64,000 bases of DNA from Clytia hemisphaerica (Eukaryota; Cnidaria; Hydrozoa; Leptothecata; Clytiidae), in contig CACVBU010000994.1 of assembly GCA_902728285.1 (NCBI GenBank), positions 1 through 64,000 on the forward strand, written 5' to 3'. How positions within the stretch are numbered: the first letter of the stretch is position 1; every line of letters begins with the position of its first letter. The position numbers were made by a program, and so were the translations under genes. A model generated the notes under the pieces. It ran no database searches. It saw nothing but the letters and a program-made list of their open reading frames with translations, and had not been told where the DNA came from. Shown here in pieces: positions 12,147-50,139 of the stretch.

Positions 12147-14569
12147 CTACATGTCTTGCTCACTTTCTTCGTGCGTGGAGTTTTCTGTAACCGAAGCTTG
12201 ATTCTGGTTGGAGTCTTCTTTTTGGGTCATTTCATTAACGGCAAAGGTTGTGACTATACCCGATACAGCGCTATACGAGTTATCAAACGTATTATTGATG
12301 AGGTATATATTTTTATCTGGTCGTCCTCCATCTCCGGCAGATGTTTTAATTGAATATCCAACTTGACTGTAGTTTCCTTTGGGATGACTACAACGTTCCA
12401 GTATTTCTGCTGGCCTAAACTTGAGAGCGCCGATGTTCCTTGGCATGTTTGGAGAGAACAAACAACTTCGGATTTATTGGCATTAAGCCCCAAACAGTTG
12501 ATACGTGTCCCACAAAACACACATTTAACAGTATGGAACAATTTTGTTCCCACAATCTTACATTATTGAAGATGGATAATATTCTCATCCACCAATGGCT
12601 GCTTGAATTGCATATTGTTTGGGTATTGGAACAAATTAAACAAAGTTGCTCCGCATGTATGCAATTCTGTTTCATTGTTCCAAATTGATTTCTTCAGATT
12701 ATTGAAAATATAGGTTGTGTCATTCGATAAAAGTGTGGCATACTCGCGCCACAACACTAGTTTGATATATTCAGTCTGGTCACAAAGGTACCCCTTGCAC
12801 ATGTCGATGAGTGAACCAGACACATTGACTTGTTCCACGTCTTGTAATAGGACTTTTCCTATTACATTCACATCTTGGTTTAGCGAGATCTCATTAATTA
12901 TCTTAGAGATACTTGACATTACAGCATGGAATTCAGGTTTGAACCCTAACACTTCGTGACGCACCGTCGTATTATCAGATATTCTTATTGTCCCATTATC
13001 GTACCTGTTATGGTTTGAGATTGTTACCCCAATCACATTCCTCTCAGCTTCCTCGAATAAACGACGTTTTTTATACGAGTAGCAAATTGCCTTTTCAGTT
13101 TTTCCATCTTCGAATTCTAAGCTCATTTTGAAGTATTGCTTCCCATTTTTGGAGGTTCTCAATGGCGATAAATCAAATACATAACCTTTCATTGTTGTCT
13201 GTACATCACCTAAAATGACAAGAAAATTTGCGATGATGATATCATGAATGCTGAACCTTTTTATTAATATAAGGCGAGGCCAAATTAATTTGTTGTTTTA
13301 AGGACTATGCTTCTCAAAAAAAGTGAGTCGGTCGGTCGACAAAAAAAACAACTTAATCATTCAAATTTGTAAATTAGTACCACAAATTTGTAAAATTTTA
13401 ATGAAAATGCTAACAAGAAAATTGGCAGACACAAAATTGTCGAATTGGCAGCAAAATGAAAAATGAAGCATAAAAATCTAATTTAAAAAGGCTACCGAAA
13501 ATTCAATAATACAGTCGTCATCAACATCTAAAATAAAAACATTGACTGTCTAAAGTCAATTTTATTTTCATTTCCATTTTAGGGTCAGTTGGGCCTGTAA
13601 TTGGCCTCGCCCAATGAAATTATTATAGAAGGTTAACTTTACATATCTTACCGTCAAAGTGCAAAAGATTCAGATTCCCGGACTATTCACTCTGATGTAT
13701 AGTGACACGTAATGTCCTGGAATCTGAATCAAATGCACTTTAACAGTTAGGACGTAATGTTGAGCCTGTTGTCTAAATTCATGCAAGCCTTAATTTTTGA
13801 AAGATTAATGAAATTAATGAAATTTTCAAAAATCAAAAAATTAGCACAGAACAACAAAGTTTAGTGAATAGAGAAAAATAACTGAGTAAACACTCTGGAC
13901 TTTAAGGTGGAAGCAGCAACTTTTGACCAGTTTTGACAAAAACAGAATTTTGTTGACTTTATTAGGAAGATATGGAAGGTGCTTTTAAAACATAAGGGGC
14001 CATCCACATAGTACGTACGCAAGGAAGGGGGGAGAGGGGGGTTTAGCAAAAGCATACGTGTATTGTTTAAAGTGACATCATATCTATTGTTCTCTGCATG
14101 GGGGTATCAAATATTTGGAAAATTTTTGCGTACGTACTATGTGGATGACCCCTAATATCAAAAAGATTTTTCGATTTTAAAGGTGATTTTTTAAGAATTT
14201 TCAATAATCAAAAATAACAAAAATCTGCTAAATCAGCAGTTTATTGTAAAAAGTTGCCTCTTTTGGCTCTATTTGCTGAAAATAGCAAAAATTGTTGTTG
14301 CCACCTTTAAGTCCTGACCGGCAATTTAACCAATCAACTGCACTGACTTCCAAAAATCATTGACAAATTTCTGACATTGATTTTGATCATGTGATGAAAA
14401 GGAATGGGCGAAACAAATCCCACTTCTAGACCAGGTTTGTTATTCAATTGACATTTATTGAAAACATACAGACAGAAAAATCCTTACTGGTGGGAGGAAC
14501 CGCTTCTTCATTTGGTTTTGCAAATTTGTGTTTTGATTCTTCCGTTTTTGAGGATTTACGCTTCGACAT
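12147..14569 (-). pseudogene. RPA70-like single-strand DNA-binding protein, spliced, probably Helitron-borne
   Basis: Exon 1 (14,569-14,488) begins MSKRKSSKTEESKHKF and ends at donor A|GTAAGG. Exon 2 starts at 13,209 after TTTTAG, and the joined codon keeps frame (VPPT-S-DVQTTMKGYVFDLSP). The MKGYVFDLSPLRTSKNGKQYF segment and following 200 residues fit an RPA70 OB-fold. A zinc ribbon follows (CVFC, then C-x4-C, about 12,430-12,525). One in-frame TAA at 12,563-12,565 separates the OB part from the zinc ribbon, and the last 90 codons lie in another frame, ending EESEQDM. RPA-like genes are known passengers of some Helitrons; the Rep/helicase body lies upstream on the same strand. The intron holds a TA-flanked MITE. 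The pairing with the Helitron is inference. Confidence 0.75.
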
Positions 14570-15061
14570 ATTGACTTTTTTAACTTGATACTAAAAATAG
14601 ATAGAAAAGATGTTTCAAAAAAGTTAAAAAAGACAAATTCCCCAGTATGAACTCTCGCTAATCCCTAGAGCCAGAGGGGAGGCACTTAGGTAAATAGAAT
14701 GGCGTACAAGAGGACATGCTTCTGGTAACGGTTCATTTTGTATCTATTTTCAGCCTCTGAAAATCTTAAGGCTGGGATACATTCCATAATTTCCTGCTCT
14801 GTTAACAGGGTAAACATTTTGTTTTTTAGCACTTTTTTACAAAAGAGATAGGGAGATTCTTTGAATTTTGATTCTACGGCTTACTGACACCATCTTTCAT
14901 CTCCAGCGGCACATCCATGCCTGTTGTCAAAGTTCTTGCCCCCCCTCACTCTGTGATGTGAAAACGATAATGATGCACTCTCAATGGCAATTATAGTATG
15001 TAAAATATCTAACTTTATTTACTTTTGATGCAATGTGCAATTCATGGAATTCAAAACACTT
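13322..15061. other. Helitron-RPA intergenic and intron region
   Basis: Apart from RPA exon 1 and one MITE, this stretch is A+T-rich. Minus-strand 14,960-14,740 shows short open segments, but I cannot tie them to the endonuclease domain that stops at 15,062. No clear Helitron 3' hairpin or CTRR end could be fixed by eye. Confidence 0.5.
13995..14152. mobile_element. GTACGTACGC MITE, 158 bp
   Basis: The terminal inverted repeats are AGGGGCCATCCACATAGTAC and the mirror of GTACTATGTGGATGACCCC. They are flanked by TA on both sides (13,993-13,994 and 14,153-14,154). The same family occurs at 51,111-51,277 and in fragments near 22,166-22,288 and 23,752-23,850. It is non-coding and probably moved by a Tc1/mariner-type transposase in trans. 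Confidence 0.75.
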
Positions 15062-16291
15062 TCAAAACTTAGAAACTATAATCAAAAATATGAAGCTTGA
15101 AATGTATTTACTTTTTCTGCTTCTGATGAAGGTGACCACTAAAGAGTCCGTGAGCCGACCGTGTAGTCGTGTGATCCCAGGTAAAATACGACTGCCCAAT
15201 ATTTCGATGCCTTCTTTGTAGAAAACAGCAGTGTTAGAATATACATGTTCTGCTACACTGTTAGCATACAGAGAAAAAGGTTTAAGGATATCTTTGATTT
15301 CATCAATATCAGAATGTTCGTCTAATTGCGTTTCAGTCATACATAATATGCAGCTCTGCATCAGAAATCTGTCACAACTTATATCTACGGCATGCTTTTT
15401 TAATGAGCGCACATTGAGAAGAGATACGATGAATTCACCTCCATTTCTTTCACGAGGGTTTTTTGTTTCGAGGCTCATATTTTCTCCCATCTCATTGTAT
15501 TCGTCTGTAGCTTTTGCATCACATTTTATGATATTCGGGTTGAAGCCGCCCAACAAGTACAATCCTTTCAAGGAAGTAACACGACTTAATGCAACATAAA
15601 CCTGACCTGACTTAAAACTTCTCTGGCCAAATAAAGTCACATTGAAAACAATTTGAGAGAATGTTTTTCCCTGTACTTTATGAACAGTGCACGCCCATGA
15701 AAGCATCAATGGAAACTGAATACGTTTGACAGAAGGATATGTTTTTGTTGCTTTAACTCCAAACTCCTTTTCTATTTTCTCTATTGGTACTAAATTGTTA
15801 GCTCGTCCATATGTATCCATGTTCTTTGCTTTAACACCAATATCATCACTTTCCATTTTTACGTATATGCGGTTTACTCTTCCCTCTTGATCAAATATTA
15901 TATGTTCGACTATTCCAATCTGACCATTGCAAAGCTTATCTTCGACGTCGATGTTCGATGTTATCATTACTTTATCACCAAGTTTAAAAACAAATTTATA
16001 AGCTAGACCTCCTGTTTTCATTTGACCGCGTCGATAAACTTCATTCTTATCTGAATTGCTTATGTTTTTAGGAAATATTTATCTATTGAGACAACTTCAA
16101 CTTGCTCTCCGGGAAGCCTATCTAGTTTCATTTTGTTGTGAGCATCAACTAGTTTATTTTCAGCCCATAAGTGAATGGCTTCTCTCGGGTAATCGGAATG
16201 GTTTTCAGTGACAACTCTCTGAGCAAGGATTTCCATGTCATTGTCTTGAGTTATTCCAATTCTAATGTTGTTTAAAACATCAATGAAAACT
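15062..16291 (-). pseudogene. Helitron: helicase C-terminal part and EEP endonuclease start
   Basis: From about 16,021 the frame runs through Pif1 C-terminal motifs: LSWACTVHKVQGKTFSQIV and GQVYVALSRVTSLKGLYLL. It then enters an endonuclease/exonuclease/phosphatase start: FIVSLLNVRSLKKHAVDIS and ILCMTETQL, the metal-binding Asn and Glu of the family. The EEP domain is cut off after about 110 residues, before the Asp-x-Asn and Ser-Asp-His motifs, at a stop at 15,062. A frameshift near 16,070 separates this part from the helicase core. Either the endonuclease is truncated or its end lies in an exon I cannot see. Confidence 0.8.
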
Positions 16292-17645
16292 TGATCCCCC
16301 CCATTTGCCTCATTACCTCAGTAAGTTCAACTATTTTGAAATTTCTCCAATTATGATCGATATTCAACAAAGGTTCTGGGAATGGTGAAAATATTGTTCC
16401 ACCTTGTATCGGGGGCAATTGGTAAAAATCTCCGCAAGCTATTATTGAAATACCAGCAAATGAAATGTCTTCACTGCATCCAAAGATATCACATAGTCGT
16501 TGATGAATGTGAAGTAAACGATATTTTGAGACCATTAAAATTTCATCAATAATGATCACTTTTAGCTCTGAAAGACGCTCTCTCAAATTTGACCTATATT
16601 GGTCAGGAAGACTAGGGATGTGCTTGGACCATTCATTACCGGGAATCAAACTGAAGACAGAATTTATAGTTGAGCCAGCTACGTTGACAGCTGAAACGCC
16701 TGTTGGTGCCATAATAAGCAATCTTTCTTTTGATGCATTTCTTGTTCCGTAAGTCAAAGCCTTCTGCAAATAGAATTTGATTGTGTTAAGCGTGTAAGAC
16801 TTTCCGCATCCTGCACTACCTGTTAAAAAGACATGAAAGGGAGCCGGTTTATCGAGTGCATTAGTTCTGAGTTGTTGCATTGATTTTCTACTCCACCGTA
16901 ATATGAAATCAAAAAATGCGCTTTGCTTTTCGTTAAGAGATCGAATTCTTAAACTTAATTCTTCATCTGAAATCAATGGTTGAATGGTTTGTACGGAAGC
17001 ACCTCCTCTGTACTCATTCTCGTTTTCCTCTTCATTATCCGTCTCTTCTTCGATTGCGTTGTTCAATTCTTCTTCTCTTACTTCATCATTTTCCTGTTCC
17101 CCGTAGATATCATAGCCTCTCGGATTCTCTTGGAAATTTAACATTGCTTCATCTACCATATCACCGAATGGTTCAAAAAGCCCTTTGTTTCTATTTATTT
17201 TTTCTAACACTTCGGGTAAAAGAAGCTTTTCAGTGTATCTTCCTGATTCGCCTTTGAGTTCGTTTTCATTTCTGAATGGAAAAAACATAAATAGCAAATG
17301 ATGAGCATAGTGTTCTGGTTTTTTCTCTCTACTCGGAACGTGATATCTCAAAACACATTTTGTTTTTCGCAATTTTAAACGTTCCTTTTTATTAGACATT
17401 AAAGGGAATGATGCTGGTAAACGTTGGTCCATGACTTCTGACGGATCTAATTCTTCAAGGATTTCAGGTTGATAATCATTTTCTTCTTCTTTTCTTTTAG
17501 TTTCCAGGCTGTAATTGGCTAAAAACTCAGCAAAACATAAGCGATCAAGTGCAGCATACCTTCCGTTCATGTATCTTGCATTTGGTCTATCTAAGTAGCG
17601 ATCTAACATGTTTTTCTTGAAGACATTTTCATCGTTTGCATCCAT
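16272..17645 (-). pseudogene. Helitron: Pif1-family helicase core
   Basis: This part begins near VFKKNMLDRYLDRPNARY, the usual Rep-helicase junction. Walker A is VFLTGSAGCGKSYTLNTI (about 16,800). Walker B is KVIIIDEILMVS and motif III is ACGDFYQLPPI. It unwinds DNA during rolling-circle transposition in the family. The true upstream frame joins ...QEEISNMDANDEN, so the ATG at 17,645 is internal to the polyprotein rather than a real start. The frame breaks at 16,291 in a run of seven C, after EVMRQMGG; removing one base restores DQVFIDVLNNIRIG. Confidence 0.88.
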
Positions 17646-19359
17646 ATTTGAAATTTCCTCTTGACTTTAAGTAAGGTAAGTTTAGGTAAGTTACTGTTTG
17701 CAAAGGTAACTCCTGGTGACGTTTTTCTTAGCCAGATTTCTGGGAGGACAATAGAAACAGCTTCCTGGATAGACATTTCCCTATGTGTTCTGTAAGCTCT
17801 TGATATTGATTTCATTTTTTCACGCAATGATGCATTTGATTCTAATGCTTCTTTTGCTGCTTGCTCCATTGCTTCAGTTGATTCATCTTCAGATTTGGAA
17901 ATGTAAGCACACATATTGGACACTGCTCGATGATAATCTAGAACAGGCTGAATGTCTATATTTGCTTCCCACGCACGCAATCCTTCTTCGAAATAGTTGT
18001 TCACAAAACATGCTGCTGGGGAGCGCTTGTAGTGAATTTGAAAACCTTTATCAGGAGAAATAGCAAGGTTTTTATAATAAATCTCTTTCGTGATTCCCAA
18101 TTCTGCTAAGATTTCTTCAATCGACTTTGGTTCTTTATAATTATCCTTTGATGGATCAAGTACGTTGTTATGTCTTGGATCAAAATACTGGTCGATATAT
18201 TCTTTCACTGGAGCTAGGATTGATTTTCTCGTTTGAAGTATTTCATCTTTGTCTGGTAGATCCTCATCTAAAGGGATGGCTATAAAGGTTTTTTCGGTAA
18301 AAAACTTGCCGAAATGATACCTACAGGACTGATTTTTGTACTTTCTACAAGACTTTGAATGACGATGAATTTGATATGTTTTGACCAAATCAAATAGTTC
18401 ACTATTTGTATCTTCTGGAAGGTCGCATTTAATAATTTTATCGATAAATTCAGCATATTCGACAACGGTTTCCTGTGTTAAGATGGGAGCGTCTTCGATC
18501 CATATGAGACAGTGAGCGTGAGCACTTTCTCTAGCTTGAAATTCTATTCTAATAGCATAATGCTTTAATTTCCCCCCCCTAATGCTCCTTTAGCGATGAT
18601 ATGTTTGAAATAACATTCCAGACGGTATTGGAAATGCCTTGCTAGTACCACAGGATTAGATTGAAGAATCTGTGTTCTCTCCATATAACTCAGATTACTT
18701 ATTTCCTCTTCAGTCATTTCTTTCCCTTTTATTTTTTGAATGATTTCGACAATCTCAGGCCATCTTAAGTCGGCGCATGACAACGTATGAAAGAACGTTG
18801 GAAAACCTAATTGCTTTATCATTGCTAAAACTTCATATAGAAATCGTTTCCAATATGCTGGGGTGCCTTTTAAATTGTTCATAAAACTATACGCGTTGTC
18901 ATTAGCAACAATATTTGAAATTGTCTCCTTGAAATTCTGAGATAAATGGCCGGCTGTTAATCCTTCTGTTTGAATCTTTTTCAGAGCTGTGTTGATACTA
19001 TTATTCAAGTTTAAGTGCTGCAATAATGATTGTGCATAGAAAATGTGGTCACTATCCGAGGAAAACTTTTGAGAGTAGTTTAATAATCGCTGATTAAAGT
19101 ATTTGCAAGGGCTCAACTTTTCGTCTCTGTTGTGTGTGTACCCAAATTCACCGGTAGGAAATAAATGGGGATGGGCTAGCATTTCATTTTCGTCGCAGAT
19201 TATGGGTAAGGGTTTTTTATCTTATCCAGGTGCAATAATAACATTTGAGTTAACAATGTCATGTGCTAATTCGGGAACAAAAAGTGTTTCAGAAGCTGGA
19301 ATACGCAAATGATCTAAAGGGTTCTCATCTTCTTCTTCTTCATTTTCAACAGTTTTAAC
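17646..19359 (-). pseudogene. Helitron: HUH Rep nuclease domain
   Basis: The segment MLAHPHLFPTGEFGYTH opens the Helitron-like N domain. The HUH motif reads ESAHAHCLIWI, with the two His at 18,512-18,520. It lies in a frame that joins the upstream part only if the C8 run near 18,575 is one base different. A Cys/His cluster (HRHSKSCRKYKNQSCRYHFG) follows. The tyrosine region reads AVSNMCAYISKSEDES: Tyr at 17,904-17,906 is present, but the position where I expect the first catalytic Tyr is Asn (17,916-17,918). One TAA interrupts at about 19,224. Confidence 0.85.
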
Positions 19360-19864
19360 TTAATCGATATTTTCCTCGTTAACGAAACGAATTTCTCTAT
19401 TTTCGTCTTGACCATTGTTGTCGATGGAATTTATCCAGCATTCAGGTATAGAATTTATGTTCATTTCTATGTCAGAATACAAAGGATTATTATGTTTTAG
19501 ATAAGTCAAAACTTCTCTAACAAAGGTTGGTCGAACGGGTTCAAAGTAAACATTAGATTTGAAGTTCATCTTCTTTTTCAAAGCTACTCTAACGACTCCG
19601 TTATTGTCCATTCCACGCGGTAATATGTTGCAAATTTCATCTACTCTAATCAGAACATTACAAATAGCTCCTTTCATTTTTGCGGCTTGTCCTTTACTCA
19701 ATATTGTTATTCGTTTAAAAAGCAAGCGCTTTGCAATAATGATTTTTTCTAATTTTCTAATATCTGAAAATCTTTCGGGCAAGTTTATAATTTGCAAGTC
19801 ATTCGCGACTGCTTGGCACGGAACTTTATTTTTGAGAAGGTTTTTATGACATGTCTTACAAATC
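19360..19864 (-). pseudogene. Helitron: CKTCH zinc and pre-Rep region
   Basis: Reading from 19,862 gives ICKTCHKNLLKNKVPCQAV, a zinc-binding word typical of the segment before Rep in animal Helitrons. Next come LPERFSDIRKLEKIIIAKR and YLKHNNPLYSDI. It ends at a TAA, but the same frame continues as VKTVENEEEEDENPLDH into the Rep part. The upstream end is the 14 bp target duplication of the Penelope insertion. A homologous fragment lies at 63,541-63,804. Confidence 0.75.
19851..19864. repeat. Target-site duplication, left copy
   Basis: ATGTCTTACAAATC occurs here and again, base for base, at 20,763-20,776. It brackets the Penelope-like insertion exactly. Confidence 0.85.
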
Positions 19865-20580
19865 CTAATTCAGCTCATGACCCAAAGGTGTTGAAGAGTA
19901 TATTCTCTGGATTTCTTAATCGTGCGTACAGAATTTGTGATGACCGATTCCGTCAGGAAGAAATTGATTTCTTAATAAATAACTTTGTCGAGAACGGTTA
20001 TGATCGTAACACTTTAACCCTTATCGCAAACGATTACGACAGAACCAGGAACCAGACAACCGACAATCGAAATGATCCAGAGCAACTACCAATCGTTAAA
20101 TTACCTTGGATACCTGGTCTGAGCCCAAAACTGAGGAAATCCTTCCGAAATGCTGGGTACAGAACAGTGTTCAAGAGTGGTTCAAATCTAAAAACTTTGC
20201 TAACTTCTAAGAACAAAAGCCGACTACCACCTAACAGTCACCCTGGTGTGTATATGATAGAATGCGAATGTGGTAAAAGATATGTTGGCGAGACCGGGTT
20301 AAAGATATCCACACGTGTCAGCCAACACAAAAAGAACGTTGAAGATGAAAAATGGGACATTTCGGGTATAACTAACCATGCTAAAGACTGTACCCAAGGA
20401 CTTAATTGGAACGAAGCTAGGCTTTTAAAGACTGAAGAGAACAAATTTGATAGAAAAGTGCGAGAGGCATTAAAAATCCAATTCCGTCAGACGGCGCCAC
20501 ATAGTGACGATGGTCAGTATGTGACATCTAGGTTTTGGAAGCCAATGCTCTCACACATTAGGGAGAAGACACTACATTGA
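19865..20580 (+). pseudogene. Penelope-like RT thumb and GIY-YIG endonuclease, 5'-truncated
   Basis: The first residues, SAHDPKVLKSIFSGFLNRAY, and VENGYDRNT fit the region after the RT palm. The GIY-YIG nuclease follows: GVYMIECECGKRYVGETG holds the GVY and YVG pair, then KISTRVSQHKK supplies the conserved Arg, and DRKVREALKIQ the likely catalytic Glu. It ends at TGA 20,578-20,580. The frame stays open through the host TSD upstream, so the apparent ATG at 19,792 is Helitron DNA, not a start. The RT palm is missing. Confidence 0.85.
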
Positions 20581-25693: not shown

Positions 25694-28249
25694 CTATTCC
25701 TCTTGAAGTTCATTTGCTTCTTCATCTGGAATGTTATAGTGCAAAGTAGTATGATATCTTTCAAAACAATCAATGAGACACAAACTAACAGAGCAGTCAG
25801 GGCACCAGTATCTGGAATCCTTTCTTTTCTTTTGGGATCAACAGACAACACACGGACCTTGTGCACTTTTCTTTCCCAGTGTGCTGGGTCTTGGTCTCAC
25901 AAAATGACGCTCGATCAGCCGTAGAGGGTTATCAACTTTGGTTTTTGGCCCAGTTTGCGGTGAAGAGATACCAAAAGAGTGTTGGGTAATGAGACTTGAA
26001 ATCAATTTTCTGCGATATGTCAGGTGATCAACTTTATTTCCAGGGTTTAGATGTTTCCATACGACGAATGAATTATACACAGTAATATCTAGAAAAAGTT
26101 CTGCAAGCTTACGAAACCATTTGATGCCTCTTTTTTGGGAGCTGTATGGGATGAGGACACGACTCAAAGTATCTACACCACCCATGGTCTTGTTATAGTC
26201 AACAATCACATCTGGTTTCAAGACAGCAGCACCAGTTTGACGATTGACCTTGCCAGAATCCTTGAGTGAACCGGTGTGTATCGTTGATAGCATGGAGACA
26301 ATTTTTTCTTTTTTGGTTTTTGTTACGTCGTTCCATCTGAGTACCATAACATCCTTATTGAAAGCTTTTTTTGGTTCATCACCTTTGATTGGTTTCCACG
26401 TCCAAAAGTCACCTGGTAAACCCTTTTTATTTTTGAGTGTTCCGATACAATCAGTTTTTTGATGAAATAATTCCTGAGCAAGTTCGGGTGCGCTGTAGTA
26501 ATTATCTAGGGTTATCCAATAACCAAGATTTAAAAATTGATCTCCTAAAGACAAAACTATCTTTGAAGCTGTAGTATATTCATCCCATTTTTTCAGTAGA
26601 GTTACATTGTTAGGAGCTGGGTAGTCAGTGCTTTGTCCTGTGTAAATAATAAATGAGCTCAAATAAGCAGTGGAGCTTTCACAAAGCATATACAGTTTTA
26701 CCCCATACCGTTCGCGTTTTGTTGGAATGTAGATACGAAAGCTGAGACGACCCTTCCATAATGACAGATACTCGTCAACGGCAATGTTTTCATAATGGAT
26801 ATAATTGTCCCTAAATTTTCTAGAAATGTCACTAATAAAAGTTCTCAGCTTTTTCAAAGAGTCATCTGGATCAAATTCAGTTGGACTAGAAAAATGAATC
26901 ATGGTACGCAGAGCTTTGAATCTGGTACGAGGCATAAGTTGGCTGAAAATTGGGGTTGAGCATAGATGATCATTTGTCCAGTAAAGGTTAATTTCAGGTT
27001 TACTGACTATGCCCATCAAAAGCAACACAACATGATATATCCACATCTCGTCGCGATTAGTGGGCTTCCAATCTTTGAAAATACTTTTCTTTGTCACTGC
27101 AAGACGAACGCGTAACGATTGACTCTGGAGAAATATATCAGCATATTCATTGGTGTACTGAACAATCTTATCCATCAATTCATCAGAAAAGAAAGTTTTA
27201 AAGACCTTCAAAATATCAGTCGGGTCATCGGGAATGTTTTTTACCCCAGGCTGTCCTAAAAATTCAAAACGTCGCTTTTCCGTTCGCGCTTTACCAGACC
27301 AAGGATCGTCTTTCTTCTTTTCTCCATTGTTTTCTGCACTTGTGTCCTTATTACCCTCTTGCATGCCTCTGCCCATACGCATGCGTCCACGTCCGCTTTG
27401 TTTTCCTTGTCCTCGTACACTTCCACGACCTTGCCCACGTCCACGACCTTGCCCACGTCCACGACCTTGTCCACGTCCTTTTCCTCGGCCACGTCCTCTT
27501 GATGACGTTGCGCTCTTCATCTCTGGTTCTGTTTCTTCATCACTTGTATCTGCCATCATTGCTAGGGTTACAGCACTACCAGGACTTTTTCGGGTTCTTT
27601 TCGATATGGGTGAGTTTGCATCTGTATCGTCAATCTCTTGCTTTGGAGCTCTACATTCTTGCGTTGAAATGAGTCTATCAAATTTTGAACCAAAATCTTC
27701 CTCTGTCTCAAAGTCAATAGTGTCTCGACCCTCCCCAAGAATAGTAGTATCCTTATCAGATTGATCATCAGCATCAACAGACACAAAAATTTGAATTTCG
27801 GTCATCTCTTCATCAATGTTGTGCACATCATCAATGTTACCTCGCTGTTCGTCAGCGTCAATGACATCCGCCTCTGCGGCTGCTGCTTTGGAACAGCAAG
27901 GCTCGTCGTTGTTGTCATTATCGTCTTTATTGCCAGCTATTCGAGCATCAACCATGCTTGCAAAACTTGGTGATCCATCATCCAACACATTTTCAGAATC
28001 TAAAATAACATTATTTTCTGTTCAACTTGATCTTCCAAAGAAAGAAACTTTCTCGCTCAAGAAAGCGCGGAAACAGCATAAAAAAACAAAAAAAGTCTGT
28101 AGGATTTAGAAAAATATACCTGAATCTGAGTCCTCATCACTTTCAGAAAACTCTTCATCAAAATCTGACTCAAAATCAGATGGTATGTCATCAAGCAAAT
28201 CCAAAATTTGATCATCAGTTATCTCTTTACCTTCATACCGACCCGCCAT
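25694..28249 (-). pseudogene. piggyBac transposase, two exons, one in-frame TGA
   Basis: Exon 1 (28,249-28,120) starts AAG-ATG-GCG and encodes an acidic MAGRYEGKEITDDQILDLL segment. The donor is TCAG|GTATAT and the acceptor TTTTAG at 28,001-28,000; the joined codon keeps frame. Exon 2 has an acidic region, a GRGRGQ repeat (27,400-27,510) and the DDE domain. Catalytic Asp lie in IAVDEYLSLWKGR, ITLDNYYSAPELAQ and NKTMGGVDTLSR. A TGA at 25,838-25,840 follows CVVC. The same frame then continues 47 codons (YWCPDCSVSLCLIDCFERYH) to TAG at 25,694, completing the Cys-rich zinc module. Full length with the TGA read would be about 811 residues. Confidence 0.88.
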
Positions 28250-34284: not shown

Positions 34285-35281
34285 ATGACGCTAGAAAGGC
34301 TCACAGAAAAGAGGCTACTAGGCAATGCTGATAAACGTGGTGCTGCTGACGGATTGTTGAAAACATTTCAAACAAAGCAATTCATGGCAACTGTTCAACT
34401 CTTCAAAGAAATCTTTTCTTTTACTTGTCCCCTGAGTCGAGTTTTACAGGGAATAAATATTGACTAAGGTAAAGCCTTGGTAATGCTGGATGAAACACTT
34501 GCCAAATTGGAGTCACTAAAGCCCGAGAATATTATTGCCAATGTTGAAGATCAGTTTGAAGAAATCGAATGGGAGCAGAAGCGCAAAGAAGATGATTCAC
34601 CTACAACTCCTGAAGCTAAGTGGCGGAAAGATGTTTTTCGAGTGGCTGTTGATGCGGATAGATTTTCTGAAAGCAGACATGTTTTAGAAGCTTTTGCTTT
34701 TTTTTCTCCACGTTCGTTCTCGACCTTCTATAAGGCTTTTCCGACTATCCGTTCATGTAGAAGAGAAGGTTAAAAAGTTCTGTAAAACGTACAGTATTGA
34801 TTCGCAACGATGTGCAAATGAGCTCTTCAGTTTTGCAGGGGCCTTCGACAAATTAATTTCTTCAGAGAAACCTGATAAATCTAATCACAGCTTTCCTCGA
34901 GCTTTCCAAGCAAGTGACAGTAGTGATGACGATGAAGTTGAAATCGATGAGAATGAAGAATGTTCGGATGGTGAAAGATCCTTTACTGATTGTTTGAAAT
35001 TGCTAACTAATACAAAATACAAATTGATAGGTGCCTATCCCACAATAGTCCGTGTTTATGGAATTTCAGTTGCCATCCCGATAACTTCTTGTTCAGCGGA
35101 ACGATCGTTTTCGACTCTCAAGCAAGTGAAGACACGTTTACGTTCAACTATGATTAAGTATAGACTGGAAGGGTTACTGCTAATGTCGATTGAAAGAAAG
35201 ATTTTATTGGGCTTGAATAAAGAAGAAATAATCGATAAGCTCGCAAAAACATCGAAAGAGCTAGAAAAAGCTCTTCTCTGA
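34285..35281 (+). pseudogene. hAT transposase, 5'-truncated, with C-terminal dimerisation domain
   Basis: Three open pieces are collinear: 34,285-34,467, 34,477-34,773 and about 34,770-35,281. The first ends GINID then TAA; the next continues GKALVMLDETLAKLESL in the middle of a hAT protein. The last holds the diagnostic hAT C-terminal block IPITSCSAERSFSTLKQVKT and MSIERKILL. A frameshift near 34,760 joins the second and third pieces. The DDE core N-terminal half and BED finger are missing. Confidence 0.8.
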
Positions 35282-40232: not shown

Positions 40233-41478
40233 AAATTCAAAACAAAGATGATGTAATGGATGTTGCTAATAAAGTGCAGAACATATTTGCTGTTTCTAGT
40301 TCTACTATTCTGACATTTCAAAGAATATTTTCTATCAAATTGTTACCAATATTGAAACATTAAAAAATATTGGTTTGCTGATATTTTTTCAGAAATAGCA
40401 CTTTTTCAATATCTATATCAATAAAAAACTTAGTGGAATTTTCGTTCTGTAAAGTATTTAAAATCGAATAATGCTCAACCCATTTTCCCTCGGACCTCAA
40501 ACACGAACCCACGTTTTGTTTGTTCCTTTGCCATTCAGTTTCTTCTCAGGAAGTGTGTGCCATCGACAGCAGATAGAAAATCCTGGACATAATGTTTTTA
40601 GCTCAAAGTAAGTTGAAATCAACTTCTCTTTTCGATTTAATGGTTTGCAATTTGAATGAACGTTAAGAGCAGCCACCTTCTCGAGGTCCTTTTCTCCTGA
40701 AAAATCTGACATCTGGTTGTGTTTTTCACAAGTATAGCTCCTGGATTTTTTTAACAGATTGTCCGCTGGAAAATTGTATGTGTTTTTCCTTAGTATGTGC
40801 TCCTGGATTTTATGAACAGAGTCTTTTAAGGCGACCTCTGGATTTTACCTGAGTGTTTAGAGGAAAGTCTCAGCAGCTGCTTTTGGAACCTTTGCGGATC
40901 ATTGATTCAAAATATTCAGACTAACGAATCATAGCTCTACAAGTTTTGGCACTATTTCAATTAACATCAAAACATTAACAATCTTACACTGGATTAAATG
41001 TGCTTTTCTTTTTGGAAGGGGCCATACTAACTTATCATAGAGGGACAATCATGGACGACATGGATTTTCCGTAGCATTTTTCTTTTGAGTAACATTTTCA
41101 GGATTTTACGAGAAAATAAAGCAAATTTTATGGATTTTCTGATACATATGCACTAAGTAATGGGAAAAAAATCCTGGATTTTCCAAAACTTTTTTCAAAT
41201 TTCTCAAGATTTCCAAGTGAAAAATAAATCTAAAAAACCTTGTTGTCCACAGGGGTTAATGATATTTTTCTGGAACTGCCCAGTGCAACTAAATACTTCG
41301 TAAAAGCCACTTTTTGAAATTCCTGACCTCAAACCAGCTTTTGCAACCGTAAATCGAAATGTCACAAAATGAATTCATTTGATTGATATAGACAAGAAAT
41401 GTGAATCAAAGCTGTGTGACAATAATAGAATTGTTTTTCCTGCAGAACAAACTTAAAAAAATTATTTCAACAAGAACA
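40233..41478. other. Non-coding stretch left of the new transposon
   Basis: A+T-rich sequence with no gene I can support. 40,730-40,870 repeats CTCCTGGATTTT words. Confidence 0.35.
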
Positions 41479-41552
41479 CAGGGGGGGGGTACATGGAGTA
41501 ATAACCTGATTTTCGGTAATTTTTGAAAAATCTGGGACCACCACCCTTTTTT

Positions 41553-41611
41553 AGTACATGGTACTAGTTTTTTCTGGGATTTTTTTAGGGGACCACCCCT
41601 TTTACTACCAT
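41553..41611. repeat. Subterminal repeat, left copy
   Basis: TTTTTTCTGGGATTTTTTTA followed by GGGGACCACCCCTTTTAC lies between TAGTACATGGTA and TACCATGTAGTA words. The same segment is present in the same orientation at 48,018-48,090 near the other end. Confidence 0.75.
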
Positions 41612-41830
41612 GTAGTAGCTATCACCACCAATTCGAATCCTTATACCACCCTTTAGTACCTTGTAATAGATATCACCGCCCATATAAATCTCTATACCAC
41701 CCTTTTAGTAACCTGTAGTAGCTATCACCACCCATTCCAATCCTCATACCACCCTTTTAATACCCTGTAGTTGCTACCATCATCTATTTTAAATCTTTAC
41801 AACACCCTTTTAATACGCTGTAGGAAACTA
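41586..41830. repeat. Subterminal tandem repeat, about 58 bp unit, four copies
   Basis: Diverged units each contain TACCACCCTTTTAGTA, CTGTAGTAGCTATCACCACC and an AATCC patch. The array lies just inside the left end of the transposon, the usual place for transposase-binding sites. Confidence 0.7.
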
Positions 41831-42529
41831 ACTACACCTGTACCATTTACTTTGTCTTTATTTTAACACAATTAACAATTATTTCTGGTTCTTTTGAAAA
41901 GTACTGAAAAGCAATAACAAATACAGCAATTGATACAAACAATGATTTTTTTCTAAAAATTGATACAGTGAAGCTTTCGCTGGCTCCTTGAACCTTGTTA
42001 AACTTATTGAAAAGTGAAAACAGAAAACTGAAAGATTTTTTTCTAAAGTATAAGGGGAATTGAGGAGGATCAAAAAGAATAGTAAGTTATTGTAAGTTGG
42101 GGTGCAACTCCCTTGCCAGGCAATTTACTAAGCAATGAACAGAGTTTGAAAGAAGTTTCGTTATATCAATATAGAGTTTTTTTGAGTTACATAGAATGGG
42201 CATTGCTTAGTTTAAGATCAGAAGAAAGTGGCCTGGTAGGCAGCTTACAGAAACTTAACACAGCAATAGGAAAAAAGTTAGTTTTCATTTATAAGCAAAC
42301 TTAGATTTAGTATTAATAACTAAAAAGATTTTGCTACTAAAAAGATTAAAAAAACTATTTTCACATTTCACTTGATTTCACTCCAAAATATTAGACCAAA
42401 GACTGTTCCAGCAGGTTCCAGGCATATTATTAATAGACCATAACTCAAAACCTCAATACTGAATTTTATGGAACATATAAATATAAGAAATGCTCCAAAA
42501 AATGGTTAGAAATCTAAAATATACTAGAC

Positions 42530-43165
42530 TACAAGTGTGAACCTGTGAAAAAACTTTAAAAAATGAGATAAACTGGTTAACAATGAGATTTAGACCTCTC
42601 TAGACTAATTGATTAGAAACTTCTTAATGAATTTCAGAATTACATCTATTTGATTCCAAAAAATAATTCTGTGAAGAAGTAAATCTGGGATAAGAAAATC
42701 ATTCGTGTTTAAGGCATGAGAGTGCAAAAAAAGGTTGCAAAATAACAACAAACGCAAGAATCCTTTTTAAGGCTTTCTAATAGGATTAACTCACATTATG
42801 CCAACAAAAAGGATAGGTTGGACCAAAACTATACATTATAACAAATCAGAATGAATCTAACAAATGTTCCAAAATCCTAGCAGTAGAATAAACTATGCAG
42901 AACTGTGAAAAAACCTTGAAAAAATCTAAAACAAACTTAACAATGAGATCTAGATCTCTTTAGAATAATTGATTTGAAACTTGAATGTCAGAGTTACATC
43001 TAACCTCAAAAAAAATCCAATGAGGAAGTAAATCTGGGATTAGGAAATCGTCATTCATGTTTATAACTTCATTATTTTTGATAAGGCGGACGAGGGCAGA
43101 AAAACAGATTTAAAATACCAACAAACACAACCCATTTTTTCATAAGGCTTTCTAATTTGACTGAC
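42530..43165. repeat. Diverged duplication inside the transposon
   Basis: Two units of roughly 280-300 bp (about 42,530-42,810 and 42,885-43,165) share the same order of landmarks: GTGAAAAAAC, TTAACAATGAGAT, AGTAAATCTGGGAT and AAGGCTTTCTAAT. Identity looks moderate. It is non-coding. Confidence 0.6.
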
Positions 43166-43621
43166 CAATCTGGACCAATGCCAGAAAAAGGATCATGAAA
43201 AAAGAGACCTTAAAATAGAATAACTAATTATATAACCTGGTATAACTAATATCAACAATAAAAAATGACTAACATGTGACTAAAGTATAAGACAAAACAG
43301 GCTTTAGCTTCAATTTTTCCTGGCCTTACGGTAGCTAAGTTTAAAAAAGTCCAATACTTTTTACCTTTAAAGCAAATAATGAACAAAGAAAACGCAGAAC
43401 AGAAAGAATAACTAACAAAAGAGATAACTTATTCTTGCAGTTCTATGACAAAATCCCATAAACTTGATGAATTTAAAATTGAGAGCTGTAGCAGACCATA
43501 GAATCAACAATAAACTTTGAATAAATCAACAACTATCAATAAACTAATGATAAATGAAAACGCATAAACTTTACTACCTTCAATAAGATATACTGTATAA
43601 AAAATAAATCCTCACAAATGC

Positions 43622-46600
43622 TCATCTCAAATGAAAATTAATCTCTTTGGGGTCTATAATACATTCTGCAGGAATATCTGTCTCAACATGTTTTTCATCA
43701 AAATGGCATTGGAAGTTATACAGCCATACATCAGAAAGGCAGCCCTGAACAGGACATTTTAGTAGGCGATTCGTGCATGGATTATTACTTTTGTGAAACT
43801 TTTTAGATCTTCCATAGTCAAAATAACATGAACAATCGCATTCTACAATTTTATAATACACTTTATTGGCATTTTTTCTTTGAAATTTTGCCATTCCAAA
43901 AGTAAATTTAAAGAAAAACAACAATGTTTTTAAAATTGAGCAAAAGCTTTTCGATTAAAAATCATCTTCAGTGCTACAAATGATGTTACTTTATTGGCAG
44001 TTCTGGAAGATGAGGTTAAACTCACCTTACATGTTTCTCGTCCACAGAAACCACAAACTCTGCTGCCTAACAAATCCTTTTTGATAATATGCCTTCCAAT
44101 ATGGGCCCTCAGGTCAGAGAGTGGAACCCACTTTCTACAATGAATGCAGCGTTTCTGAATGACTGAAGTAGTTCAAGATGAATGGCTTGCTGTTGGGGGT
44201 TGATCAGATTCATTTGGTTCTTGGAGTTCCAGATGCACTCCAATATCTCTAAGAAGATTTATATCAAAGTAGAATTTGGTATAACCTTGTGGGGGATTAA
44301 TATCGATAATTGGCTTGATAGGCATAGCCTGTGATCCTGAGGCTTTAAATGATTCTCCCACAACTTTTCCAGTCCAATAAAGTCGGTTATCTATTTCATG
44401 ACAGTCAACTTTCTGGAGGGTGAACTCATAATCAGCAATAGTCGATGAGCAGTCGATTTCCTTGAAGGGTTTGTTTCCTTTGGAGATGTTGATTACATTT
44501 GCAAGAAAAGGGGACTCTTCTACCCTTGCAACAAGCATTGGGTCACCAATGATCATCAGCGAGTCTTCATGTGAAGATTTGTGTTGGCGAACATCACTTT
44601 GCGACATACCTTTGACTCGACGTAAGCGATCTTTAGACAGGGTTTTTGACTCTGAGATTGCCTTAAGGCATGTAGCTTTATAAACCTTTTTGTCATCAAT
44701 CATAAAAAATGGTTCAGCCTTGTCACCTGGAGAAGTGATAAGTTCACTGAAATTTGGATCCTCCTGTTGAATGTTGATCTCTTCCTCCACGGTTTCAGAA
44801 ACTTCAGCACTCCAATCTTCTTCGTCATCCGAATCTGAATTAGTGAGTGTGACGCCTACAGGTGTACCTTTTTTAATAGGACACCTCAGAGTTACTGTTT
44901 CTAAGTCATTCAACTTTTCCATTTCCTCAACGTCATCAGTTGAAAGATGTGATATGGCTTTATAATAACCAGATCTCCATGCCACTTTGATTTTCAAATC
45001 TTTCGCAATGAGCTTGTTACGATCCCAGTTGGAAACGCTCGAATAATCAAGGGCGAGCCTTCTTTGAGCACGATTCTTTTGCCCCCATTGAGGATGGTCG
45101 ATCAAGAGAATTTTGTCACATTCAACCATTGATCGAGCAGCATTGATCATTTCGAGAACGTTATAGTTAGAACCTTTAAATCTCATTCTAATGTTCCCAA
45201 AAAATCTTTCCAATTGGTCGCTACCATCCTTAATCAAAAACAATGGATGATCAGGTGTATTCTGCTTCGACTTCGCACAACAAAAAAGTGCGTCAGTAAA
45301 TGAAGCTATGATGTCGTGGTACAGCTGTGATGGGATGAGTTTTGTTTTGTACTCGCGGTAAAGGAAAAAAAGCAAATAGGAAGCAGTTGACATGCATTTC
45401 AGTTGGTCAGGAAGCGATTGGTATACATAGACATAAAACGATAATAAACCCTCAAAAATTAACCCAAGCATGTTTATTTCGCTTCTGATCGGTACCATGT
45501 TGTATGGAAGGTCTGCTTGACTTGACATTTCTATAAATGCCAAAAGAAATCTCGTAGCAGATTCAACGTTTTGTTTGTCTTTTGGGTAAAGGTGTGTATC
45601 AGTAACGTTGTACTTGTTACCTTTCAGAAACTCTTTCAGTAGATTTTTCGTAATAGCAACATCATTGATGATCATGTTACCTGATATCACAGCACGCCAA
45701 ACTCTTTTCGCCATATGTTTTGGGTCAAAATTAACTGTCATGCCATCCGGACCGACGTGGTAATCAATCAAGGGTAATTCACTCACATGATGGTACCTGA
45801 AAAAAATCGAATTTCACGAAATAATTCCTCATAGCAATTCTTAATCCTTGTCATGGATCCTTTCTTATTCAAAATCATACTGCACATTCAAACAGATTCG
45901 AACAAATGAATATAGATAAAATAAAATAATTCAAAAAATTATTTTTTAGTCTTTTTTGTCCCTTTTGGCTCAATTGGAATATTTCAAAGGCCATGGAAAG
46001 TCTTCAGCTTTTTCTGTCATCAGACTATTTATTGCCCTCCTTCGTGTTGGATCCCCATCCGTACAAAAGTTGACTAGAGGAAATACAGTTTCTCCTTTCA
46101 ATTTTCTGTTAATTAATTCGATTAGATTTATTGTTCCATCAAAATCTTTTTTCGAGCACGATGGCCAAAGAATCAATGGCTGCAAAGGGGTATCCTCGTT
46201 TAGAGAAGTTAGCCCGATGGCTAGACAATCTTTAGGGATATGAATGCTACCTTTTTCAACTAAGTTCTGAATGTTTTCACAATCAATAAAATCGTCCAAT
46301 GAGGTTTTTACTGTTGACCCGTGCTGGTAGCATAGACCGTAATCTCCATTGTCTTTTGAATTGTAAGCTAAGGCAGGTGTCGTAAATGACTCATCCATCT
46401 TTAATGACATACTTGACTTCCCCACCTCTGATGTGGAGATATTGGATTCAAAACATTTGTTTACTGAGCTTTTGATTGACGACTCTATAGGAGGACATTG
46501 CTTATTTATCTTATAAGCAGTTGAAACACTTGGAAGCTTACCAGCTCTATATAAAATGGCAAGAAGGCTTGGTCCACCAAACTTTAAGGTCAAGTACGCT

Positions 46601-47481
46601 AGGTCTTTGTCTTCCTTAGTTGGGTTCGGTCGGTAAATTCCATCAATGGCAGCAAGAACTCTGTCTATAATATGGATGATTGATCGGTTACTTTTCAATG
46701 CTTGACTAACCAATTGATTTAATCGAGTGACGTTATTCTCGGAGATAAGCACCAAAAATCTTTCGTGCAATTGGATTGTGGCGCAAAGTTTTGAGTTCTT
46801 AAAGCTTTTGTTCATTAGTTGTAAGCGCATTTCACGGTTTTTGCTTTGACTCAATCGAACTTTATCACTTAGTTGGTCATTTACTTATCATTCTAAGTTG
46901 GTCGCTTTCAATGATTCGTCTTCGGTATACTTTTTAAGTCCTCTGTCAAGTATGCTCGTAAGAGTTTTACTCGTTTTCAAATTTTGGCACCATTGCGACA
47001 TGCCTTGTGACGAGTGATAACCATTTTTGGCACAGGAAATGCTATGCAAAGAATCATTTTCAATAACAATTCCATTTTTCCTCAAAAAGCCACCTGGCAG
47101 GTCACAGTAAATATCAAGTAACTTTGGGGAAATTCCAGAACATTGGTCATGATCATCTTTGAGCTCTATAGTGTCAATTGTTGTCAAGGTGTTTTTGCAA
47201 ACCTCATCTACTAAATCATCCACCAATTCCTTTATGTCATCAGCATCATTAGTTTCTTTTGATAAAAGAAAAGTGAAGTCAATATCATCTTCCATGTCTT
47301 CAAAATCATTAGGTTTAGCTAATTTTTTAAACATGTCTCGAATGTCTTTGTTCTTTCTTTTGCGTCCTGACTTGACATCCTGACATGACTTGACTTGACA
47401 GCTAGATACATGCCTTTCCCAATTCTTGGAGTTAAGACTCCCTTTTTCTCGGTCACAATTTGGACATTTTACATTTTCCAT
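43622..47481 (-). pseudogene. Large multi-exon transposase of the 6.7 kb element
   Basis: Reading starts at ATG 47,481 (MENVKCPNCDREKGSLNSKN), a C-x2-C...H-x4-C finger. The frame continues through TGA-TAA at 46,890-46,885 to 45,970. Exon boundaries seen are acceptor TTTTTTTCAG at 45,797, donor AAG|GTGAGT at 44,026, and a last exon ending TGA 43,622. Candidate catalytic residues are Asp in SLKMDESFTTP, Asp in NFCTDGDPTRRR and Glu in DGSDQLERFFGNIR. A TGA at 44,173-44,175 is followed in frame by CIHCRKWVPLSDLRAHIGRH and CGFCGRETCK, then NPCTNRLLKCPVQGC in the last exon. The donor after KYSN near 45,970 is unclear. Length would be about 1,200 residues. From memory, the DGSDQLE, WRSGYY and CGFCG words resemble basidiomycete hypothetical proteins. 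Confidence 0.75.
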
Positions 47482-47730
47482 TCTATATATTATTTTTAAC
47501 ACTGTAAAACAGAAAAATTCTAGATTATACAGTCTTGGATGGATCATGATGGGTGTTGACTGACTTGTTTATTTTTATTTTGCAACCATTTCCTAAATAA
47601 AAATTCAGATTCATTTTTATTGGAGAACAAATCGAATCAAAAATATTAAATGTTGAACATTCTTTCTTTCAATAAATGTTCTGATACAATCGTTAGCTTT
47701 TCTTTCTCCAAAATGAAACCGATTTATGTA

Positions 47731-47818
47731 AACATTCGAAATTCGAATATTTCAAACATTCGAAATTCGAATATTTCAAACATTCGAAATTCGAATATTT
47801 CAAACATTCGAAATTGAA
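47731..47818. repeat. 24 bp tandem repeat upstream of the transposase gene
   Basis: CATTCGAAATTCGAATATTT plus CAAA is repeated about 3.6 times. Each unit holds overlapping TTCGAA palindromes. It lies about 250 bp upstream of the gene start, inside the element, so it may act in promotion or transposase binding. Confidence 0.8.
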
Positions 47819-48017
47819 ATTTCTAAACATAACAAAAAGAAAGAAAGAGAAAAATAAACAGATAAAAAAAAGAAGAAAAAAAGATTTTAGTTATGGCACA
47901 TGCAGTACAGTGTAGTACCATAATACAACTGGCAGTTTTTCGATTTGGTTTGATCAAATCTAGCTGAATATACTACATTGTACTATGCTTTGAAATTAAA
48001 GTTTACTTTGGTACCAC

Positions 48018-48090
48018 CCAAATTAGTACATGGTAGTAATTTTTTCTGGGATTTTTTTAGGGGACCACCCTTTTTACTACCATGTACTAA
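48018..48090. repeat. Subterminal repeat, right copy
   Basis: This direct-orientation copy matches 41,553-41,611, including TTTTTTCTGGGATTTTTTTA and ACTACCATGTACTA. Because it is direct rather than inverted, it is separate from the terminal inverted repeat. Confidence 0.75.
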
Positions 48091-48161
48091 ATGGAAATAA
48101 CTTTGAAAAACCACCACCCCACCGGCCATGGGTCACTACACTGAACATGTACCCCCCCCTG

Positions 48162-48587
48162 AAGAACATGATATTCTAATTAAAGAACATAACACAACTA
48201 TGAAATGTTGTAAAAAATGGAAAAAAAATCTGTCCTGTACGTATAATTGTAATGCATATTTATCCTTGTTAGCTATAACTTTCTCAAAGTAGAAGTTATT
48301 GATTGAAGCTAAAATTCAGAATCTAAAAGGCACTTATAGTCAAAAGCACCCAATTTTAGGCAAAAATTAACCAGTTAAATCATAATTGCAGTTTATTCCT
48401 GCTACCAGTTTCAAATTTTTAGATTAGACGAAATAAGTTCCCCCAAAATATTTAATCTGCCTTATTTGAACAGGTCTAAAGCTTTCTGCTAGACATAGAA
48501 ATCCTAGAAAAATCTAATTAAAAAATAAAAAAATTTATATAAATAAAAAACTATTTACAAATACTTAAATCTTTTTTCTATATTTTT
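48162..48587. other. Non-coding stretch
   Basis: It begins with the 7 bp target duplication of the transposon. The rest is A+T-rich with nothing I can support. Confidence 0.4.
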
Positions 48588-49511
48588 TTAATTTTTCCTG
48601 TATTTTTGACTCAAAAAAACGTGTCGACACATGTCATAATCCTGTTCTAGATCAAAATCGTGTTTTAACTTATTGTAAATCTCTGCCACCTTATCAGGAT
48701 TGAGTTTTTCAAATCCATGCCAGCCCTTTAAATTACATGTTTTTAATTCTTCAGGATGAAAATTATCAACCAACATCTTCAATCCTGCGGTTGCCATCTT
48801 GCCGACATCTTTTGTTTGTTTTGGGGGCCTGCTTTCCAGATTCATTTGCAAATCGTCAACGGAGATTGCAGGTAAGGTGTCCTCACCAGTGAAGATTAGT
48901 GGGTTGCGTTCAATAGCAGTCTTTATGTCTTTTAGTTGAGACATAATTTCAGTGTTCATGTTTGCTACAACATTTTTGAGAGAGATGACTTCTTCTTTTA
49001 ATTCGCTATTTTCGATCTTTAAAGCAAATACTTCCATTTTCAGGGATTTGAAGTCATCACCCTCGCAGTGGTCTTGTCCAGTCCTCGATTCGTTATATGC
49101 CTGGATGACCCCACTCAGCATCGAACCGGATGATGGTATGATCGAACCCAAATTTGTTAAAACTTCTCGTGTGTTCTGTGGCGTGGATTTCAAATGTGTC
49201 GGTCGGTGGATGATGGCTGCGATGTCAAGTGAATCGTCAACGTTTCTAGTTATCGCGTCTATCTTCTCTGTCATGTTAATGCTGTCATCATTGTCAGTGA
49301 AGGTCAATTTATTACAGTCCTCGTGATCAGTAACCGTATTATCAGTTGGTTCGTAATTACCTGACGTCTCAAAGATATTGTCGTTGTCAGCCGTGGCGTC
49401 AACAGTCTCGTTGGTTGGATGGTCGTTACGGAGCAAGCCTGTTGCTGTACTTGAGTCGTCAACACTGTCAGGATTTGTCACTTTGTCCAGTTGGGGGCTG
49501 TAACTTGCCAA
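48588..49511 (-). CDS. Coiled-coil protein with BEN-like C-terminus, open reading frame intact
   Basis: 307 codons stay open. The N-terminal 90 residues are Asp/Thr/Asn-rich and look disordered. Residues about 155-205 form a predicted coiled coil (LKMEVFALKIENSELKEEVI, then SLKNVVANMNTEI). The last 75 residues (GLKMLVDNFHPEELKTCNLK and DPDKVAEI-like helices, ending CRHVFLSQKYRKN) are reminiscent of BEN domains, which bind DNA; this is a weak call. An ATAG acceptor-like site precedes residue 1, and no ATG is at the start, so it may be the last exon of a longer gene. It could belong to a transposon or to the host. Confidence 0.45.
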   Translation of the reverse strand: MASYSPQLDKVTNPDSVDDSSTATGLLRNDHPTNETVDATADNDNIFETSGNYEPTDNTVTDHEDCNKLTFTDNDDSINMTEKIDAITRNVDDSLDIAAIIHRPTHLKSTPQNTREVLTNLGSIIPSSGSMLSGVIQAYNESRTGQDHCEGDDFKSLKMEVFALKIENSELKEEVISLKNVVANMNTEIMSQLKDIKTAIERNPLIFTGEDTLPAISVDDLQMNLESRPPKQTKDVGKMATAGLKMLVDNFHPEELKTCNLKGWHGFEKLNPDKVAEIYNKLKHDFDLEQDYDMCRHVFLSQKYRKN

Positions 49512-50139
49512 AGTTGAGAGCCTATTTCATAAGAATATCGAAATTAGAATGCGACACTCTCTAAAATTATTCGACACTTTTAAGTCAAAATTTAGAAATA
49601 TTAGTCTGAGTTTTGACAAGCTGACGATGATTTTGCCTCTGTTATCTTTGTTATGATATAGATAAACGAGTTGAGAAGAGTAGAACAACAGAGACTTTTG
49701 TCGAAGTTTTGACGTTGTTAGCAAGGTATTCCCAAGTGGTATATCATCAAAATCTATTGTTTCATCTTATGCTTTTAACGAGGCGGCAACGAAGCTAGCA
49801 GCCTTTTCTACAAAAAGACAAAGGAGATGGATGTCCAGTCGTTTATATGTTCATGGTTTATATTAAAACAAGTTTTATTAGCCAGAAAGAAGTGAATTGC
49901 TTTATAAAGGATATTTATTTCTCCGACCATGATGGAGTTTGTTTCACTATTGTGAGTGATTCTTAAATTGTTTTAACTGCCTGGACTGCTTGAACTGCTT
50001 GATATGGGGGGGTTTACAGTTTGGAAGGTGGGATACATAAGGGATACAAAATTCTTCAAGAACCAGTCCCAAGGCCCATAAAGTTTGAATTAAACTATAC
50101 CACTAAATTTTCTTTGGATCAATTCATCTGAAACATCGG
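49512..50139. other. Non-coding stretch
   Basis: A+T-rich. It may hold upstream exons of either flanking gene, but none can be supported. Confidence 0.35.

Follow-up and report, generated by a model that had tools for sequence, protein, structure and literature searches.

The stretch between positions 41479 and 48161 of a 64,000-nucleotide window of Clytia hemisphaerica DNA (the window being the whole stretch that was analysed) was described in the initial annotation as a complete DNA transposon that fits no superfamily. The locus therefore raises the question of which known transposases, if any, its product is related to. We read it, with a probability of roughly 0.75, as a decayed full-length copy from a family of cut-and-paste DNA transposons, a deeply branching relative of the P-element superfamily that lacks a THAP domain.

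The element is 6683 bp long (41479-48161) and carries inverted ends with G-run termini, CAGGGG...CCCCTG. Its ends and the adjoining target site comprise the following features.

41472-41478, no strand: left target site duplication (TSD) AAGAACA, single copy at four paralogous empty sites
41479-41495, plus strand: left terminal inverted repeat (TIR) CAGGGGGGGGGTACATG, 17 bp in the window copy
41551-41617, plus strand: left subterminal repeat of 67 bp, 94% to 48023-48089, carrying TACATGG/TACCATGTA motifs
41597-41809, plus strand: subterminal unit of ~52 bp in four tandem copies (repeat family D2)
48023-48089, plus strand: right subterminal repeat of 67 bp, a direct copy of 41551-41617
48146-48161, plus strand: right TIR CATGTACCCCCCCCTG, 16 bp
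48162-48168, no strand: right TSD AAGAACA, single copy at four paralogous empty sites

The TACATGG motif occurs five times in the element, always within ~140 bp of an end, compared with 0.8 occurrences expected from base composition. A 24-bp unit, AAACATTCGAAATTCGAATATTTC, forms a short tandem array within the element, upstream of the gene (47730-47825). The flanks of the element are part of a repeat, and a query in which both flanks were joined with one AAGAACA gave 11 genome matches. Two of these are pieces of the filled site, two end short of the junction and seven lie at other places and span it (C558, 94%; C70, 87%; C786, 86%; C850, 83%; C250, 83%; C882, 83%; C128, 81%; the matches at C128, C70 and C882 cover only part of the query). 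A single AAGAACA without the element was observed at all four places retrieved (C558, C786, C850 and C250), which is direct evidence for the 7-bp duplication. The ends, the coordinates and the exact AAGAACA duplication originally assigned to the element were confirmed, and the empty sites match them.

Further copies that share these ends and the 7-bp duplication, for which the initial annotation had proposed a search, were found. The right-hand 212 bp gave at least 42 genome matches including the window (40 of 163 first-pass candidates scored), thirty of which were retrieved. In a scan that was not conditioned on a TSD, 15 of the 29 non-window loci with the window's right end were found to possess both ends; 13 of these 15 have an exact 7-bp TSD, L023 has a TSD with one mismatch and L029 has no TSD. 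Looser patterns added L037 (TSD with one mismatch), and a scan requiring at most one TSD mismatch added L033 (exact TSD). The two-ended copies from the unconditioned scan are 1.06-1.48 kb long, and their TSDs differ from copy to copy. In the five short copies compared with the full element, the retained outer parts amount to ~400-500 bp at the left end and 360-385 bp at the right end, and the middle differs. The TIRs of the short copies are longer than those of the window copy, with ends that agree at 21-23 of 24 bases after the G-run. The original view of a cut-and-paste transposon of the DDE type, with complete end structures, a 7-bp TSD and further copies bearing the same ends, is supported.

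Coding relatives were also abundant. The 546-codon and 304-codon exons of the window gave 46 and 34 genome matches, respectively, window included, and the matches of both searches fall at about 30 places by our count. Two loci are divergent full-length relatives, L054 (6119 bp, exact 7-bp TSD ATGGAAT) and L055 (6436 bp, exact 7-bp TSD GATGAGT), which start with the same CAGGGG as the window element and have different inner TIR sequences. A further copy, L053, is 97.7% identical to L055 over 6 kb, and the right flanks of the two differ. Six exon stretches of this pair (918 codons) contain no stop or indel and 8.5 synonymous versus 7.5 nonsynonymous differences (pN/pS 0.23). These few differences, over part of the gene, fit a transposase that was kept functional until recently, and the presence of near-identical copies of one subfamily at two sites makes this subfamily a candidate for a bench trial. 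Precise insertion, shared ends, internally shortened relatives and several divergent coding subfamilies are thereby shown for the family. No relative was found by tblastn among 40 viral-contig and 96 genome-contig stretches that match peptide patterns.

Two of the copies are associated with other mobile sequences. Compared with L055 (C38 copy), L053 (C261 copy) carries ~2 kb of extra sequence at ~113-2125, a nested insertion with the edges TAGGGA...TCCCTA beside GTAGTAG-like repeats. L051 (C3 copy) seems, by eye from the open reading frames, to be inserted into the DIRS-like coding sequence of a tyrosine recombinase (551-1078 and 7521-8171), which resumes on the other side. Neither a right end nor a TSD was detected for L051, nor for L052 within the limited scope of one pattern scan.

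The one long gene reported between the ends of the window element is present, though encoded on the minus strand and no longer intact. The joined reading comprises 1171 positions with in-frame stops at 46888-46890, 46885-46887 and 44173-44175 (positions 198, 199 and 1038), and the window copy is therefore dead. The gene is divided as follows.

45991-47481, minus strand: coding part 1, with the N-terminal C2HC-type finger, a helical region, D363 (46393-46395) and D475 (46057-46059); adjacent stops at 46885-46890
45797-45990, minus strand: putative intron or insert, missing from the aligned L051, L006, L007, L008 and L053; boundaries approximate
44026-45796, minus strand: coding part 2, with D521-x2-H524 (45715-45726), the helical insertion domain, E693 (45208-45210), a linker, a predicted beta-barrel (~44218-44634) and the CIHC and CGFCG zinc modules; stop at 44173-44175
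43622-43876, minus strand: coding part 3, with the CDCSC and CPVQGC...H...H modules and the terminal stop; upstream junction approximate

Judged by eye, the putative intron has an acceptor that looks good and a donor, the first of the gene, that seems decayed (GC); given this donor and the uncertain last junction, the C-terminal join is approximate (~20 residues). From its N-terminus, the protein contains a C-x2-C...H-x4-C finger of the C-x2-C-x14-H-x4-C type, a long predicted helix, D363, D475 and D521-x2-H524 in this order. The helical insertion domain, E693 in QLERFFGNIR, the linker, the predicted barrel and the modules CIHC...H...H, CGFCG, CDCSC and CPVQGC...H...H follow towards the C-terminus. 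The protein thus carries both the D-D-E candidates and the C-terminal cysteine modules noticed earlier, and relatives show almost no variation at the D-D-E motifs. Counted over the rows present at each column of a merged alignment of 14 loci, conservation in the catalytic region is 8/8 for D363, 10/10 for T474-D477, 8/9 for D521 and 9/9 for H524; in the insertion domain and E motif it is 11/11 for Q572-V574, 9/9 for D690, 9/10 for E693 and 9/9 for G697. Structure modelling predicts a Tudor-like barrel in the C-terminal part. The D1/D2 region was modelled at low confidence, and an RNase H geometry of D363/D475/E693 is putative.

A Pfam hmmscan of the window and the relatives, a check that had been proposed at the outset, gave sub-threshold matches only and no family above threshold, including the P, THAP, hAT and KDZ models. 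The view that the element fits no superfamily holds at this level, but a relation to P element/THAP9 transposases, though distant, is detectable by profiles and structures. When the family profile was compared with all PDB sequences, seven matches were obtained at E up to 5; the best was an RNA polymerase subunit (E 0.011) in another region, and P transposase was the only transposase (E 0.024). With a profile of exon 2, P transposase was the sole match (E 0.024), aligned over the P insertion domain, and a second stretch, weak by itself, places the E693 motif on the E531 motif of P (NQDIVEHFFGSMR). These two regions are thus colinear with their counterparts in P in the PDB profile search. A profile of classical P transposases from the same genome matched this family with a score of 34.2 (E 0.0072), although the HH probability was just 5%. 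The motifs brought into register are, in sequence, LPS, D1, D2, D(2)H and the QNV helix. D363 falls on D1 of P and D475 on D2, and the E motif is aligned in a second, weaker alignment. As controls for this score, column-shuffled P profiles reached at most 23.7 in the 194 of 200 runs that produced output, and 17.2 was obtained with the reversed profile. The D521-P-K-H524 segment aligns with D339-T-P-H of P. The insertion domain alone matched the P profile with E 1.3e-4 (local) and 3.1e-6 (global), and the alignment runs along the length of the two domains, taking in the QNV helix as well as the QLYHD segment. Judged from these alignments, the all-helical insertion domain is homologous to the GTP-binding domain of P.

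Structure comparison points in the same direction. P was the top VIA-align match for two weak models, which share many alignment rows and are not independent. VIA-align re-ranks the Foldseek list, in which the first model had 267 matches at E up to 10 and none at E <= 0.001; Hermes (hAT) lies outside the matches listed, which excludes nothing. Classical P elements are found in the same genome. A PF21788 scan (150 of 160 candidates scored) listed at least 100 matches, none of them at a place of this family, which indicates that two P-related lineages coexist. Loci L056-L076 are classical P-type (PF21788) sequences, some with open frames of at least 700 codons.

P transposase is described with D230/D303/E531, D(2)H at D339, a GTP-binding insertion domain and a THAP domain, and the P element with 31-bp TIRs, subterminal repeats, 8-bp TSDs and internally deleted copies (PMC8230255, PMC7776569). 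The present family shares with P/THAP9 (PDB 6p5a/6pe2) the order D - D - D(2)H - helical insertion domain - E in a [D]xxE.FFG..R helix, and with P the TIRs, the subterminal repeats and the internally deleted or short derivatives. In contrast to P, it possesses a C2HC-type finger and no THAP domain, a TSD of 7 bp instead of 8 bp, a D1-D2 spacing of 112 residues compared with 73, a shorter insertion domain, an added C-terminal barrel with zinc modules, and G-run ends. The GTP contacts reported for P are K385, K400, V401, S409, F443, D444, N447 and D528, of which D444 is essential (PMC8230255, PMC7776569), and possession of a GTP-binding insertion domain is described as unique to P among transposases (PMC7776569). 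In the exon-2 alignment, V401 and D528 are kept in this family, whereas K385, K400 and S409 differ; F443, D444 and N447 of P fall beyond this alignment. No D or N column with at least 85% conservation occurs between Q572-V574 (QNV) and Q654 (QLYHD). Galileo, a member of the P superfamily in Drosophila, is reported to have 7-bp TSDs (PMC2775673), as well as long TIRs and a THAP domain (PMC3688188). The 7-bp TSD is a likeness between Galileo and this family, in which the combination of TIRs with 7-8 bp TSDs that marks the P superfamily is present. The Galileo TSDs have the consensus GTAGTAC, whereas no consensus is evident here by eye. The matched core order, together with the missing THAP domain and the few recognisable GTP contacts, suggests a divergent relative of the P superfamily that is P-like in its working and not a standard P element.

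Alternatively, the family could be a superfamily in its own right within the broader D/CxxH group (hAT, P, Kolobok, MuDR, Dada) and stand no nearer to P than to the rest of the group, the P match reflecting the shared core and the available P structure and copies. The D(2)H motif is described as common to the whole group (PMC3706591), but the VIA-align score of P (9.3) is above those of RAG1 (5.7) and Transib (5.5). P was the sole superfamily compared as a full profile; although the PDB also contains Hermes (hAT) and RAG1/Transib structures, no transposase other than P was matched by sequence. The absence of the THAP domain and the poorly kept GTP contacts would suit a separate superfamily, whereas the lengthwise agreement of the insertion domains argues for P. 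With individual P proteins the scores were 14.9-29.6 (n=8), compared with 11.5-22.3 (n=6) for unrelated window proteins; five of the eight P proteins lie above every control, but the ranges of these single-sequence scores overlap. We consider a separate superfamily unlikely and prefer the relationship to P.

Large transposases with cysteine-rich modules occur in KDZ/Zisupton elements, which is a likeness to this family. Membership in KDZ (Kyakuja-Dileera-Zisupton), in Dada or in the hAT7 type of hAT is nevertheless highly improbable. No Pfam match was obtained for KDZ or hAT in the element, whereas Pfam detects a hAT fragment elsewhere in the window (34688-35278), a comparison at the level of Pfam. 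hAT7 elements are reported to have 7-bp TSDs, as here, and Zisupton to have 8-bp TSDs (PMC12730594). Dada elements resemble this family in their 6-7 bp TSDs, introns, D(2)H motif and C-terminal zinc finger, but as described they lack TIRs and target small RNA genes (PMC3706591), whereas TIRs and diverse TSDs are present here. The D-D spacing of 68 residues given for Dada-U6_DR (PMC3706591) compares with 112 here. Chance ends around a host gene, conceivable only in that G-run termini are low in complexity, are contradicted by the paralogous empty sites and by 7-bp TSDs that recur together with these ends; their probability is negligible.

On the preferred relationship to P, a mechanism can be proposed. 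The N-terminal finger, the helical region or both would bind the TIR and the subterminal TACATGG sites, and a dimer or larger complex would pair both ends. An RNase H-like site formed by D363/D475/E693 may then excise the element and join it to the target with a 7-bp stagger, the repair of which would leave the TSD. The helical insertion domain between D(2)H and E could hold the transposon end as in P, probably without the exact GTP site of P. The C-terminal barrel and zinc modules may aid target choice or chromatin binding, and intact copies would be expected to mobilise the short relatives in trans.

These findings suggest that the P-type transposition machinery is more varied than Pfam recognises; with no Pfam model detecting the family, such elements may well be annotated as unknown repeats. 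P elements are linked to THAP proteins, and the same core order combined with a different finger, few recognisable GTP contacts and an added barrel allows one to ask which parts of P are ancestral. No description of the lineage was recognised in the literature as searched by title and start of abstract, a scope outside which most subscription journals fall. Similar proteins may occur in basidiomycetes, a lead towards the animal-fungus lineage suggested in the initial annotation. More tentatively, and with greater doubt than confidence, the family might be an unnamed superfamily-level sister of P, possibly common to animals and basidiomycetes. Such a sister lineage would combine an N-terminal finger of its own with a C-terminal barrel resembling a chromatin reader, and would transpose independently of the GTP cofactor of P. 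If this is true, an older P-type machinery acquired the THAP domain and its dependence on GTP in a single branch.

No Rfam match was found within the 64-kb window, which contains several other features. A 312-codon open frame on the minus strand (48588-49526) lies a short way outside the element and has no Pfam match above the curated cut-off. Helitron pieces occupy 12563-19869 on the minus strand, with Helitron_like_N (E 1.8e-23) and a PIF1 helicase (E 3.2e-25) encoded by neighbouring open reading frames that are broken by frame changes. The hAT fragment is a C-terminal dimerisation region on the plus strand (34688-35281; PF05699, E 1.2e-7). A 727-codon, apparently uninterrupted open frame on the minus strand (25838-28021) encodes a piggyBac-type DDE_Tnp_1_7 transposase domain (E 1.2e-72).
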